IMG/VR virus record: IMGVR_UViG_3300047476_000663
Location: 1-21,518 of that record
Strand: one strand, 5' to 3'
DNA: 21,518 nucleotides
Source of the DNA: a virus
Both the position numbers and the translations under genes were made by a program. The notes beneath the pieces were generated by a model. That model had not been told where the DNA came from. It saw only the letters and a program-made list of their open reading frames with translations, and did no database searches. Within the stretch, counting starts at the first letter, position 1. Every line of letters begins with the position of its first letter. Positions 1,584 to 17,117 of the stretch are shown here, piece by piece.

Positions 1584-2078
1584 TTATTTTTTACTCAACA
1601 ATTGTTTAAGTAGCTCATTGCGATCAAGTACTACAGCTTGGCCATCTTCAGCGTCTACAATTTTATCGCCGTCTGTTTTCTTATCAGCTTGTGCAATCTG
1701 CAGGTCTAATCGTGCTTTTTTAAGCTGTAGATCGACCATACGTAGTTTTTTATCTAATTTAGCCTGTTTAGCTGTGATAGCGTGTCCAAGTAAGGTGCCC
1801 GCTGTGGCTAAGATATGTCCGCTAAAGCGTGCTTCTACATTCATACCTAAATCTATTAGGTCTTGAAATTTTTCTTTTGCAAGGTCACTTAATTCGTCAA
1901 GCTCATTGTCGCTTTGATCTAAATCATTAACAAAAGGCAGTGCCGCATCAATTTTATCTATAGCAAGATCCACTGCTTCGATCATGTCACGATTTTCTTC
2001 TATAGAAGTCATTGATTCCTCTGGTGCAATATCTTCGCTGACTGGAAGATTAAAAAGTTTAGAAAGTTTATCGGTCAT
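1584..2078 (-). CDS. Terminase small subunit-like protein (gp16-like)
   Basis: 164 residues, the same length as T4 gp16. The N-terminal 30 residues are acidic and variable. Residues 28-130 are almost entirely helical and charged. A central block (DLAKEKFQDLIDLGMNVEARF) is followed by a long helix (AKQAKLDKKLRMVDLQLKKARLDL), and the C-terminal stretch VVLDRNELLKQLL resembles the end of gp16 proteins. Small terminases oligomerise, recognise concatemeric DNA and regulate the gp17 motor. No gp17 is present in this window, so the usual neighbour test is missing. It lies 17 nt after the radical SAM gene with only a weak ribosome site. An alternative is a helical scaffold or core protein. The gp16 call rests on length, helical pattern and remembered marine homologues. 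Confidence 0.55.
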   Translation of the reverse strand: MTDKLSKLFNLPVSEDIAPEESMTSIEENRDMIEAVDLAIDKIDAALPFVNDLDQSDNELDELSDLAKEKFQDLIDLGMNVEARFSGHILATAGTLLGHAITAKQAKLDKKLRMVDLQLKKARLDLQIAQADKKTDGDKIVDAEDGQAVVLDRNELLKQLLSKK

Positions 2079-2095: not shown

Positions 2096-3052
2096 TTAGT
2101 TGTTGGCAGGTAACACTTGGTCTCTGGTGTGCACCACTGCGTTGTTTGGGTTATTACTACACATGTCACACAAAGATATGCCTGCACGCTTAGTTCTATC
2201 AAATTCTTCCAATGACTCAACGGTAGGGTTGTTAAGATCTATTGGTTGGTATGCCAAATATTTCTGCCAGTCTGGGTCATCTTCTTGACCATATGATTTT
2301 AATATTTCAGGTAGTACAGAAAACCAACTACATTTATATAGTTTACTGTCTCTTAAAAAATAACGATAGGGCATAGCGCATCCATTTGCATATGATCCAT
2401 CAGGGTCATTGGTTGCGTGAGGTTTGATTTTTCCGTCTTCTGTTTTATAATAGGAAGAAACAAATGCCTGTTGATTATATAGTTTGACGTATATTTTGTC
2501 GTCTTTGTATATCTGTTTTTGCACTAACAGTTCTTTTGGGTTTTCAATGTCAGGAGTCTTGTGTGTTCTTAAATGTTCAATTGGATTTTTCCATTTAATT
2601 TCTTCAGTTTTCGTTAGGGTAGATAAAAAAGCATCTAATTTTTTCTGATATTTTTTAGTTCTTACATCTTTCGAAAACAAAGTAAAATGGTTAGTTATAT
2701 CTATTGTACATGGATGATAAGTTTCACATAACTCTAATAGCTGTTCTTTGTATTTAGGCAATAGTAGGCCGTTAGTAACCAATGAGATTCTGCTGGTAGG
2801 AAAGTATTTTCGAATCACCGGAACAATTTGTACAACTTTGTCCCAATATAGGAATAATTCTCCTCCCATAAGATCCACACTTTCAGGATAGACATAGTTA
2901 CTTAATTGTTCAACGCTTAAAAATATAGATTCTAAACTGGGGTCTGAGTCTGTTGTTTTAACTACGTCGGATGCACTTGTACATCCTTGACAAGACAAAT
3001 TACAACGGTATCCGTAAAATACTTCAACGAATTTTAATTTAATTTTTTCCAT
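2096..3052 (-). CDS. Radical SAM enzyme with C-terminal cysteine cluster
   Basis: 318 residues. The radical SAM signature CxxxCxxC is at C17, C21 and C24 (YRCNLSCQGC), which binds a 4Fe-4S cluster that cleaves S-adenosylmethionine. The following GGE motif (MGGELFL, 62-68) and TNG (93-95) fit the SAM-binding barrel. C225, C241, C295 and C298 (the last two as CDMC) look like a SPASM/twitch-type auxiliary Fe-S site, found in enzymes that modify peptides or proteins; the substrate here is unknown. It lies between the gp4 nuclease (11 nt upstream) and a gp16-like gene, an odd place for a metabolic enzyme. No Shine-Dalgarno precedes the ATG, and a late-promoter-like ATAAATA ends 5 nt before it, so the transcript may be leaderless. 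It is not QueE (wrong cysteine spacing) and lacks the viperin CxFCFHT signature. Confidence 0.85.
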   Translation of the reverse strand: MEKIKLKFVEVFYGYRCNLSCQGCTSASDVVKTTDSDPSLESIFLSVEQLSNYVYPESVDLMGGELFLYWDKVVQIVPVIRKYFPTSRISLVTNGLLLPKYKEQLLELCETYHPCTIDITNHFTLFSKDVRTKKYQKKLDAFLSTLTKTEEIKWKNPIEHLRTHKTPDIENPKELLVQKQIYKDDKIYVKLYNQQAFVSSYYKTEDGKIKPHATNDPDGSYANGCAMPYRYFLRDSKLYKCSWFSVLPEILKSYGQEDDPDWQKYLAYQPIDLNNPTVESLEEFDRTKRAGISLCDMCSNNPNNAVVHTRDQVLPANN

Positions 3053-3057
3053 ACAGA

Positions 3058-3064
3058 TATTTAT
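3058..3064 (-). promoter_or_regulatory. Possible late promoter box abutting the radical SAM start
   Basis: ATAAATA on the minus strand, overlapping the first base of the gp4 stop codon side of the junction and ending 5 nt before the radical SAM ATG. With T4 geometry, transcription would start at about the ATG, giving a leaderless mRNA. The small gp4-radical SAM gap (11 nt) means it could also be chance in AT-rich DNA. Confidence 0.35.
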
Positions 3065-3495
3065 TAACGTTTAAGATTCTTAAAAATATCATGCTCAGTT
3101 ATTACACGGAATCGCATATTGTTGGCCTTGCACCAAGCATCTGCGGCAGCCCATTTGGCCATGTTAATTGCTACGCTATACTTGTCTTTAACTGATTTAG
3201 CACTTTCCATTGTGGTCTGTGACATAGGCTTAATTTCAACTACTTCAACATGTTGTTTTCTGCCAGCATCCTGATATACTATAACAAAATCTGGAACATA
3301 GATTGTCTGTTTGCCTAACACTGGATTATAATATGGTATTTGTATACTCTCGCTGGCCCATTGTGTTACTGCGGGATTGTTGTCGCAGAAGTTCATAAAC
3401 GCAAATTCCCAACTACTACGGTATGTAGGTGCACGTTTACCTATATACTTTTCTAAATTCTTAATTTTAAATTTGCCGTTAGCGTACTTGGCCAT
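3064..3495 (-). CDS. 4: Head completion nuclease gp4 (TnsA/PD-(D/E)xK-like)
   Basis: 143 residues against 150 in T4 gp4, with the same pattern along its length: GKFxxxNxxKYxG near the start, YRSSWEFAFMNFCD (25-38), WASESIQIPYYNPVxGKxxxYxPDF (46-70), VEIKP (86-90), a lysine-rich helix, AKWAAADAWC, and a terminal FRVITEHDIF. P68-D69 and E87-x-K89 form a PD-ExK nuclease core with E30 upstream, as in the TnsA family. In T4, gp4 acts with gp50 in head completion, trimming the packaged DNA end before the neck attaches. It follows the 125-aa gene by 4 nt and has no strong ribosome site of its own, so translational coupling is likely. Confidence 0.93.
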   Translation of the reverse strand: MAKYANGKFKIKNLEKYIGKRAPTYRSSWEFAFMNFCDNNPAVTQWASESIQIPYYNPVLGKQTIYVPDFVIVYQDAGRKQHVEVVEIKPMSQTTMESAKSVKDKYSVAINMAKWAAADAWCKANNMRFRVITEHDIFKNLKR

Positions 3496-14596: not shown

Positions 14597-15975
14597 TGGC
14601 AGCCTTACAATCTTTTTTCTACGACGCTCAAATTGAGCGATTTTTAGCACAGTTTATTCGACTAATTTCAGGATTTCAAGTAGAATTTGGCAACAACACT
14701 CTACAACGTGTACCTGTTTATTGGGGAGATGGGAGTCGACAAGTTCAATCTATTATTAGTCAGAACTCTGGTAGTATTTTACCTACAGTGCCTGCAATGA
14801 CAGTTTACATCAGCGGCATGAGTTACGATCGAGCTCGTGTACAAGAACCTAACTTTATTGGTAAGATGCATATTCGACAAAAATATTACAACGAAGATAC
14901 TCAAGAATTTGAAAATCGTCAAGGCAATGCATTTACTATCGAGCGTACTATGCCCGTGCCTTATGACATGGAATTGAAACTTGACATCTGGACCAGCAAT
15001 CACAAACAAAAACTTCAATTGTTTGAACAGTTAGTTGGTTTGTTTAACCCTGCGTTAGAAATACAAAGCACCGATAACTACATTGACTGGGCCAGTTTAT
15101 CTGTAATATATTTAGATGCTGTTAATTGGTCCAGTCGATCAGTGCCTATCGGAACTGAGAATCCAATTGATGTTATGACGTTAACATTTAGTTTACCAAT
15201 TTGGGTTAGTGCTCCTGCCAAAGTTAAAAAGCTCGGAGTTATACAAAAAATTATTGCCAGCATATACGACAGTGATGGCAATTTAGCAGACGACATACTT
15301 GATGAAACCAATCTTATTTCAAGACAATATTTTACTCCGTTAGGATATGGTGTTTTATTAATTGGTAATCAGCTAACTTTGTTAAAATCAAATGAAATAG
15401 CATTACCGCGTGATCCTACATTATCGACCCCTACTAAGGTAGGAACCAAAGACATCTGGAACTCACTGATTAACGTATATGGCACATTAAAAAACGGAAC
15501 AAGTCAGATCAGACTATTACAAGAAGATGAATTTACTGAAGTTGTAGGTACTGTGAGTTATCATCCAACAGATGATAGCATATTAATATTCAATGCTGAT
15601 ATTGATACCTACCCAACAAACACACTGCCATCTATAACTGCTATTATCGATCCTTACAAAAATACCAATGTTGGTATTACACAACCAGCTATCGGAACTC
15701 GTTATTTGATACTAAACGATATAGGAAATTTCAGTAATGCAACCGGCTCTGCTGCTTGGAGAGGAAGCGATAATCGTGATTTGGTAGCACACGCAAATGA
15801 TATTATTGAATATAATGGCACTCATTGGAGTGTATCATTTGACAGTCAATCTGATTCTACGCTACAATATGTAAGTAATCTAACCACAGGCACTCAATAC
15901 AAATGGAATCTCAATCAGTGGGTAAAAAGCTGGGAAGGCGAATACAAGGAAGGAACTTGGACTCTGGTGTTATAG
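14596..15975 (+). CDS. 15: Tail sheath terminator gp15, with C-terminal extension
   Basis: 459 residues against 272 in T4. gp15 caps the sheath and tube at the neck end and joins the tail to the head. The T4 pattern is clear: FFYDAQIERFLAQFIRLISGFQVEF (7-31; T4 FYNSSFRRYATLMGDLFSNIQI), RVPVYWGD, LPTVPAMTVYISGMSYDRARV, PYDMELKLDIWTSNHKQKLQLFEQLVGLFNP (122-152), then VNWSSRSVPIG...MTLTFSLPIWVSAP (176-207). Residues about 290-459 are additional and hold two aromatic modules, IGTRYLILNDIG...DIIEYNGTHW (366-411) and TGTQYKWNLNQW (431-442). It is translationally coupled to gp14 by TAATG. Confidence 0.88.
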   Translation: MAALQSFFYDAQIERFLAQFIRLISGFQVEFGNNTLQRVPVYWGDGSRQVQSIISQNSGSILPTVPAMTVYISGMSYDRARVQEPNFIGKMHIRQKYYNEDTQEFENRQGNAFTIERTMPVPYDMELKLDIWTSNHKQKLQLFEQLVGLFNPALEIQSTDNYIDWASLSVIYLDAVNWSSRSVPIGTENPIDVMTLTFSLPIWVSAPAKVKKLGVIQKIIASIYDSDGNLADDILDETNLISRQYFTPLGYGVLLIGNQLTLLKSNEIALPRDPTLSTPTKVGTKDIWNSLINVYGTLKNGTSQIRLLQEDEFTEVVGTVSYHPTDDSILIFNADIDTYPTNTLPSITAIIDPYKNTNVGITQPAIGTRYLILNDIGNFSNATGSAAWRGSDNRDLVAHANDIIEYNGTHWSVSFDSQSDSTLQYVSNLTTGTQYKWNLNQWVKSWEGEYKEGTWTLVL

Positions 15976-16385
15976 AAGGTGTGGGAACTTTTATCTATTG
16001 CACTACCACTGGCCGTTATCTGTTTATCTTACGTAATACAAAAAAATATTCTGGTACTTGGGGTTTAGCAGGTGGTGGAATTGAGCCTGGCGAACAATTA
16101 TTATCCAGCTTGCATAGAGAGTTAGTTGAAGAATTAGGTTATAACTTTTCTGAAACTAAGGTTATTCCTATAGAAAAGTTCACCAGCGCCAATGAACGAT
16201 TCACCTATCATACTTTTCTTATTCCAGTGGACGAAGAGTTTGTTCCTGATCTAAACTACGAGCATAGAGGCTTTTGTTGGGTTAGTTTAGCAGATCACCC
16301 TAAGCCTTTGCACCCCGGAGTATGGAGAACTATCAGTTTTGATACTGTTGTAAAAAAATTAAAAACCTTAGAAGAATTACTATAA
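15957..16385 (+). CDS. Nudix hydrolase
   Basis: 142 residues if begun at TTG 15957, which has AAGGA 6 nt upstream. An in-frame ATG at 15903 would add 18 residues that merely re-read gp15 codons and would overlap gp15 by 73 nt. The Nudix box Gx5Ex7REUxEExGU is complete: G40, E46, R54, E55, E58, E59, G61 in the short form, which binds metal and cleaves nucleoside diphosphates linked to another group. Flanking TWGLAGGGIEPGE and FCWVSL are typical. The substrate cannot be told; candidates include oxidised dNTPs, ADP-ribose, NAD(H) or sugar nucleotides. Some sugar-nucleotide Nudix enzymes (GDP-mannose type) share the TWxLPGG pattern. It is read from the gp14-gp15 late transcript and ends with a 6-nt tail-to-tail overlap with the next gene. 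Confidence 0.88.
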   Translation: MDSGVIEGVGTFIYCTTTGRYLFILRNTKKYSGTWGLAGGGIEPGEQLLSSLHRELVEELGYNFSETKVIPIEKFTSANERFTYHTFLIPVDEEFVPDLNYEHRGFCWVSLADHPKPLHPGVWRTISFDTVVKKLKTLEELL

Positions 16386-17117
16386 GCTGGCTTCAAGTAC
16401 AAACTCTGTGTGAGAAATTTGTCTAAAGTTGGTACAGTATTTCCAAGGTTCAGGAATACGTTCTGTATTAAATTGTGTAACACGAATAAATTCAGTATCA
16501 TCGTACGCATCAAATACCTGCTTACGATCATTAATCCATTTGTCATCTAAAATATTAGTTCTAATACTATCATATCCGTTAGTGCCAGCGTATACATTAT
16601 AGTTGAAATTTTCGTCAGGTTGACCATCAAATCCTAACATAAATATTTTTTTGTGCCCATCAAATGCCGCAAGATATAATGCAGTAGTGCCTGCATCTGA
16701 ATAAGGATCGTATGGTGTTAGATAAAATTTATTTGGGTACTCTAATAAATGAATAGCATTAGTATATACAATATTATTATTGACGTATTCAGATTCGGCT
16801 ATTTCTCTGATTATAGTAGCATTTCCATTAGCAATTAAAAAATCTGGAGTAAAGTCTCTGTACAATGCATTGCATCCGTATGTCTGAACCGTGTCTGCTC
16901 CTAAATGCCCGCTATGATTTTTAAGATGTTGTAGGTTAAATGTCAGTCTGCTGGGGCCATTACCTAATACTACAGCACGATTAGATATTTGATTATTTTC
17001 TACAGCATTCTGCACTAATTCGACGGTATCATGCCAGATACCGTCGGTATAGTTTCTATCAACTACAATGTTCTCGTTTCTATAGTTTTTTCGATACTGT
17101 TTATATATTTTTAACAT
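16380..17117 (-). CDS. MptE/DUF115-like Rossmann protein, possible sugar-modifying enzyme
   Basis: 245 residues, cytoplasmic, no membrane segment. It has motifs like the 6-hydroxymethylpterin pyrophosphokinase MptE-like/DUF115 fold, which also occurs in motility-associated and sialyltransferase-type glycosyltransferases: VVLGNGPS (49-56), YGCNALYRDFTPDFLIA (80-96), a small-residue helix AGTTALYLAAFDGHKKIFMLGFDG (142-165), and an Asp/Tyr-rich C-terminal half. This set usually binds an activated nucleotide or nucleotide-sugar. The gene starts 3 nt after the fibre stop with no clear Shine-Dalgarno, so it is coupled to the fibre gene. That neighbour suggests modification of the fibre or of a surface glycan, but the evidence is positional only. 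It converges with the Nudix gene, overlapping by 6 nt. Confidence 0.75.
   Translation of the reverse strand: MLKIYKQYRKNYRNENIVVDRNYTDGIWHDTVELVQNAVENNQISNRAVVLGNGPSRLTFNLQHLKNHSGHLGADTVQTYGCNALYRDFTPDFLIANGNATIIREIAESEYVNNNIVYTNAIHLLEYPNKFYLTPYDPYSDAGTTALYLAAFDGHKKIFMLGFDGQPDENFNYNVYAGTNGYDSIRTNILDDKWINDRKQVFDAYDDTEFIRVTQFNTERIPEPWKYCTNFRQISHTEFVLEASL

Follow-up and report, generated by a model that had tools for sequence, protein, structure and literature searches.

A probable twitch radical SAM enzyme encoded at a cargo hot spot beside gp4 of a T4-type myophage

The radical SAM gene and its flanks

The window (the whole stretch of viral DNA analysed here, 21,518 nucleotides) carries T4-type tail and head genes (sheath, tube proteins, an Ad2-like adaptor, gp4-like head closure and a sheath stabiliser). 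Alone among these structural genes lies an intact open reading frame for a radical SAM protein of 318 amino acids, at 2096-3052 on the minus strand, with an ATG start and no internal stops. An earlier note on this DNA had extended the gene to 3066, which runs into the gp4 stop codon. Upstream, and separated from it by 11 bp, is the gp4-like head-closure nuclease (3064-3495, minus strand), recognised as such in that note and matched here to phrog_218 (head closure, E 5.7e-44) and to TnsA-like nucleases. Downstream, after 17 bp, comes a gene for a 164-residue protein (1584-2078, minus strand); its previous description as gp16-like was not confirmed, and it matches phrog_16202, a family of unknown function. 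The GC content of the radical SAM gene is 0.344, compared with 0.38 in its flanks and 0.25-0.33 in its relatives. Across 317 codons it differs from its nearest relative at 116, 90 and 177 sites in codon positions 1, 2 and 3, respectively, and this excess at third positions gives it the look of a selected coding gene.

A late-promoter-like box, AATAAATA, is located at 3058-3065 (minus strand), overlapping the gp4 stop codon and 5 bp from the radical SAM ATG. As a motif the box is real: 7 of the 19 window genes carry TAAATA in the 45 bp that precede them (0.5 expected, p 2e-7), but the other six genes have it 18-33 bp from their ATG, and no Shine-Dalgarno sequence is evident before the radical SAM gene. 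Most relatives without the gene have this box after gp4 too, and it was therefore rejected as a dedicated promoter of the radical SAM gene, although late expression is plausible. In most related loci, TAAATA either overlaps the gp4 stop codon or follows it directly, leaving a few bp to the next ATG, a placement that is conserved across divergent phages and is too near the next ATG for an ordinary leader.

Three further features were observed elsewhere in the window. Between the sheath and dNMP kinase genes, an open reading frame on the opposite strand (9103-9507, plus strand), with weak HNH-type and zinc-ribbon likeness, overlaps the end of the kinase gene and is a probable homing-type endonuclease. 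A NUDIX hydrolase gene (15903-16385, plus strand) overlaps the sheath-stabiliser-like gene at its 3′ end, in a different frame. Adjoining a 1387-residue fibre-like protein, the product of 16380-17117 (minus strand) shows weak likeness to MptE/DUF115 (PF01973 below its cut-off; phrog_30607), a domain that also occurs in flagellin glycosylation factors.

Conserved cysteines, fold and enzyme class

Pfam detects Fer4_12 in the 318-residue protein (E 1.8e-6, passing the cut-off) and Radical_SAM slightly below its cut-off (E 5.1e-6; 27.2 versus 29.5 bits), and no NCBIfam model reaches its own threshold. The sole strong PHROG match, to phrog_1802, covers the N-terminal core (residues 10-115, E 5.1e-13). 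A scan of viral sequences with the single protein returned 4 loci, and one with a small alignment placed the family in at least 187 metagenomic viral stretches, 80 of which were retained. Ten of 50,697 phage records match the protein, two of them over at least 80% of the query.

All seven cysteines and the GGE motif are invariant across 55-60 diverse homologues and so are not chance occurrences. Within an alignment of 55, exactly eleven positions are invariant: C17, C21, C24, G63, G64, E65, N94, C225, C241, C295 and C298; N18, H122, P211, K240 and F284 are nearly so. The first three cysteines form the CxxxCxxC motif of the SAM-binding [4Fe-4S] cluster (2981-3004), and GGE, residues 63-65, contributes to SAM binding (2858-2866). 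C225 (2378-2380, aligned with a SpeY cysteine), C241 (2330-2332) and the C295-x2-C298 pair (2159-2170), all encoded on the minus strand, are the candidate ligands of a single auxiliary cluster, judging by the sequence pattern. The earlier note had read all of these motifs correctly, and the four C-terminal cysteines whose conservation it left to be checked are present in every one of the 55 relatives.

In twitch domains, the ligands of the auxiliary cluster follow the pattern C-x9-15-G-x4-C plus CxxC. Across the family, C225 and C241 are 14-16 residues apart, with a glycine or a small or polar residue five positions before C241; the window protein reads C225-x10-S236-x4-C241 plus C295-x2-C298, with serine at the position held by glycine in 29 of 55 relatives. 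It has no cysteine beyond C298, which fits one auxiliary cluster of the twitch type and the absence of a second, SPASM cluster. The SPASM subclass was accordingly rejected, leaving the twitch half of the earlier SPASM/twitch assignment.

AlphaFold2, run on the homologue alignment with two rows from database records left out, produced a model with a pLDDT of 90.5 and a pTM of 0.89. In a Foldseek comparison with the PDB, ranks 1-4 were all SpeY, a "Twitch Radical SAM Dehydrogenase" (E 1.5e-10, about 300 columns, TM ~0.6), followed by MoaA (E 1.4e-6) and the peptide epimerase EpeE (E 1.5e-5), with viperin also among the matches. The nearest viral models were two radical SAM proteins of uncultured Caudovirales (E 6e-15 and 1e-13). 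The family profile likewise found SpeY (E 2.8e-22) and aligned all four auxiliary cysteines with it; its next best match (E 6.5e-13) covered the N-terminal core only. CxxxCxxC and GGE in 55 of 55 sequences and a partial β/α barrel, seen in both the model and its fold matches, place the protein in the radical SAM superfamily; over its full length it most resembles, in fold and profile alike, the SpeY/HygY/NeoN group, with SpeY as the matched structure. We conclude that the protein is almost certainly a twitch radical SAM enzyme. The class is already known, and the window enzyme is a new, previously uncharacterised member of it.

More specific names did not hold. The scores for prokaryotic viperin (NF038283; 24.3 versus 180 bits) and MoaA (24 versus 284 bits) lie far below the cut-offs and reflect mainly the common radical SAM core, and N_Twi_rSAM (NF033640) scores 14.7 against a cut-off of 170 bits. 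The first two names bear on one alternative, that the gene is cargo acting on a small molecule or cofactor (a nucleotide, as with viperin or MoaA, or a host metabolite) and alters host metabolism or defence. Profile matches to viperin in 35 and to MoaA in 43 of the 55 family members, together with the fold matches to both, speak for it; the low scores do not, nor do the neighbouring genes of relatives, which encode glycan enzymes and not nucleotide or cofactor functions. We regard this alternative as rather unlikely.

The earlier note favoured a peptide- or protein-modifying enzyme, and direct modification of a peptide or of a virion or host protein (Cα epimerisation, thioether formation or cross-linking) has points in its favour: twitch and SPASM domains are common in peptide maturases (PMC8326336), the peptide epimerase EpeE/YydG is among the sequence and fold matches, and the gene lies within a late structural operon. 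However, SpeY is far ahead of EpeE by both fold and profile. A RiPP maturase such as SkfB or CteB was rejected, because the protein has no N-terminal RRE, its barrel beginning at residue 4 and its CxxxCxxC at residue 17, and because the short gaps on either side of the gene hold no precursor open reading frame. The fold search proposed in that note confirmed a radical SAM fold with a putative auxiliary cluster and turned up a dehydrogenase as its best match. The nearest families are largely non-peptide enzymes, yet EpeE is also among the fold matches. With the genomic evidence presented below, direct peptide or protein modification appears unlikely.

The gp4-proximal junction as a cargo site

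Through gp4 we found 80 related phage loci, in 74 of which the junction between gp4 and the gene for the 164-residue protein could be read. It is empty in 64, where gp4 and the next gene are 11-31 bp apart. The 10 occupied junctions comprise four full radical SAM genes, one remnant and five inserts of about 800 bp. The three distinct inserts that were read are all HNH endonucleases, one of them with NUMOD3, and those of L196 and L221 are second copies, matched by sequence or length. In the tree, the radical SAM occupants fall into two distant clades that are 27-31% identical, one with the window, L004, L008 and L014 and the other with L041 and L044, indicating that the site was occupied at least twice. 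The twitch enzyme of the other clade sits at the site together with a sulfotransferase. Where gp4 proteins share 68-78% identity, the radical SAM proteins share 47-54% and have thus diverged faster.

As a phage cargo hot spot, the gp4-proximal junction is ordinary, and homing-type endonucleases are found there too. Location consequently tells us little about whether the gene takes part in head assembly. The action on a virion protein that the earlier note drew from the position in a head operon was dropped on this ground, and the operon position likewise lends little to peptide modification in general. This corrects a common inference, in that a gene within a structural operon need not serve virion assembly when the spot is a cargo site. 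The best reading of the locus is that the radical SAM gene is replaceable cargo of a large T4-type myophage.

Cargo of this kind might also be a passenger that has no role in infection at this site and whose retention or loss is a matter of drift. The gene is missing altogether from relatives whose gp4 is 92-93% identical, and one locus whose gp4 is 89% identical (L186, on the same contig as L046) has an internally deleted copy (L186:4286-4513; 75 residues), in which residues 1-48 are joined in frame to the C-terminal CDMC segment, so that both CxxxCxxC and CDMC are kept. The deleted copy points to gene loss under way or, possibly, to an assembly artefact. The unusual spacing between box and start codon and the lack of an evident Shine-Dalgarno sequence point the same way. 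Against a passenger, the window frame is intact with all its catalytic cysteines, substitutions are concentrated in third positions, and several phage lineages have an intact copy at this site. We consider a pure passenger very improbable.

Sugar genes around relatives, a proposed reaction and known systems

No sugar gene adjoins the radical SAM gene in the 21.5-kb fragment, and the support for a sugar substrate comes from the gene neighbourhoods of relatives. The copy in Synechococcus phage S-SCSM2R sits among glycosyltransferases, 2OG oxygenases and an annotated inosamine amidinotransferase, and one in a marine virus adjoins a split carbamoyltransferase. Other phage copies adjoin NDP-sugar epimerases, a sulfotransferase, Asp/Asn-hydroxylase-like proteins and glycosyltransferases. 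Further neighbours include 2OG-Fe(II) oxygenases, carbamoyltransferase, a DegT-type aminotransferase and additional radical SAM genes, and some phage loci have neighbours without recognisable function. Bacterial relatives with the full cysteine pattern have, among 124 neighbour proteins, 16 glycosyltransferases of family 2, 7 of group 1 (GT1) and 4 DegT/StrS aminotransferases. In pelagimyophages, radical SAM cassettes vary within the host-recognition cluster (PMC7029224).

The window's own clade has 14 rows in the tree, with a support of 100/100. Outside the gp4 site, its members lie beside or near a recurrent family of 350-460 residues (L005, L016, L022, L024, L025, L027, L033 and L037). Pfam, PHROG and PDB sequence searches gave no match for the partner families, and only the fold comparison pointed to GT-B. 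Nearly all the top PDB matches of the 350-460-residue partner model (mean pLDDT 67) are GT-B glycosyltransferases, including GT4, EarP, MurG, BshA and UGTs, with a weak best E of 1.7e-3. The recurrent partner may, on this model, be a GT-B glycosyltransferase. One of these loci (L016:1418-4918) holds four tandem twitch radical SAM paralogues, followed by two GT-like genes and another radical SAM gene.

The placement of relatives among sugar-building genes indicates that the enzyme most likely reshapes a sugar and not a virion peptide. We thus lean, with somewhat better than even confidence, towards a cargo twitch carbohydrate dehydrogenase or epimerase with a phage or host glycan as its substrate. 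Were that glycan attached to a virion protein, such a sugar enzyme and the view of the earlier note would be reconciled. In the proposed reaction, the N-terminal cluster would cleave SAM to a 5′-deoxyadenosyl radical, which would abstract a hydrogen from one of the carbons in a sugar residue. The resulting substrate radical might then take one of two routes, oxidation via the auxiliary cluster, as in the dehydrogenases SpeY and BtrN, or quenching by a cysteine thiol from the opposite face, as in the epimerases HygY and NeoN. The reaction would leave an altered sugar in a glycan of the virion or in the surface glycan of the infected host.

A choice between the two branches may lie in an extra cysteine between C225 and C241, which 47 of 55 relatives have. 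A non-ligand cysteine occurs in 42 of 55 at the position of R230 (2363-2365, minus strand) of the window protein. Besides the window protein, the extra cysteine is missing from one L074 paralogue and from the six members of a weakly supported clade (L041, L043, L044, L053, L055 and L082). In each of those six, the gene is followed by the same partner family (c20), with GDSL/SGNH-like features, and in L041 and L044 a sulfotransferase also follows. In NeoN, Cys249 donates the hydrogen (PMC10991966), and the title of a study on HygY cited there attributes the choice between epimerase and dehydrogenase to a single cysteine. The distribution of the extra cysteine would fit such a split, with the correlation resting on one main evolutionary event. 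As a marker of epimerases it is suggestive only, its absence being mostly confined to the one weakly supported clade. Its absence from the window copy tentatively favours dehydrogenation, the catalytic role of that cysteine being putative.

The most unusual feature lies outside the coordinates of the gene itself, in the radical SAM-rich clusters of larger related records. Several of these records have 9-19 radical SAM matches each, and others have 2-5. The rich regions lie at 136-143 kb of G001 (the L020 record; L248), 98-107 kb of G009 (L249), 122-140 kb of G003 and 230-262 kb of G005. In L248 and L249, radical SAM genes share their clusters with GDSL/SGNH-like proteins, GT-B-like proteins and a carbamoyltransferase, and L248 also encodes an 852-residue protein with two radical SAM and two SPASM matches.

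What is known of radical chemistry on sugars comes mainly from antibiotic pathways. A broader and doubtful proposal is that large environmental T4-type phages keep an exchangeable radical SAM arsenal (up to 19 matches per record) that changes the stereochemistry or oxidation state of sugars in the glycans of virions or host surfaces, the unusual sugars affecting how phages adsorb, exclude rivals or escape defence. Of this arsenal, the window gene would be one unit, moved singly through a homing-type hot spot. A broad phage family with this fold would point to a little-explored route by which phages diversify glycans.

Among known systems, SpeY, from the spectinomycin pathway of an actinomycete, is the closest in structure (PDB 7wzv, 7wzx, 7x0b): the two proteins share their fold from end to end, CxxxCxxC and GGE, and their four auxiliary-cluster cysteines fall at equivalent positions. 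At about 17% identity and the TM score given above, this similarity does not fix the substrate. The twitch sugar epimerases HygY and NeoN are likened to the window protein by enzyme class; an additional cysteine close to the auxiliary cluster is found in most of the phage relatives, whereas the window protein has R230. EpeE/YydG shares the radical SAM core and an auxiliary cluster, but most of its fold alignments span only about 140 residues, the rest superposing poorly (TM ~0.4, rmsd 12-13 Å), and the window locus has no linked peptide gene. The phage protein family phrog_1802 (radical SAM domain-containing) is the best PHROG match, but its likeness is confined to the N-terminal core, and its 556-position profile has another architecture. 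The "radical SAM superfamily maturase" of S-SCSM2R (XQU50219.1), annotated as SkfB/NifB/PqqE-like, is 25% identical to the window protein and homologous over 91% of its length, with the same seven cysteines, and lies inside a glycosyltransferase cluster.
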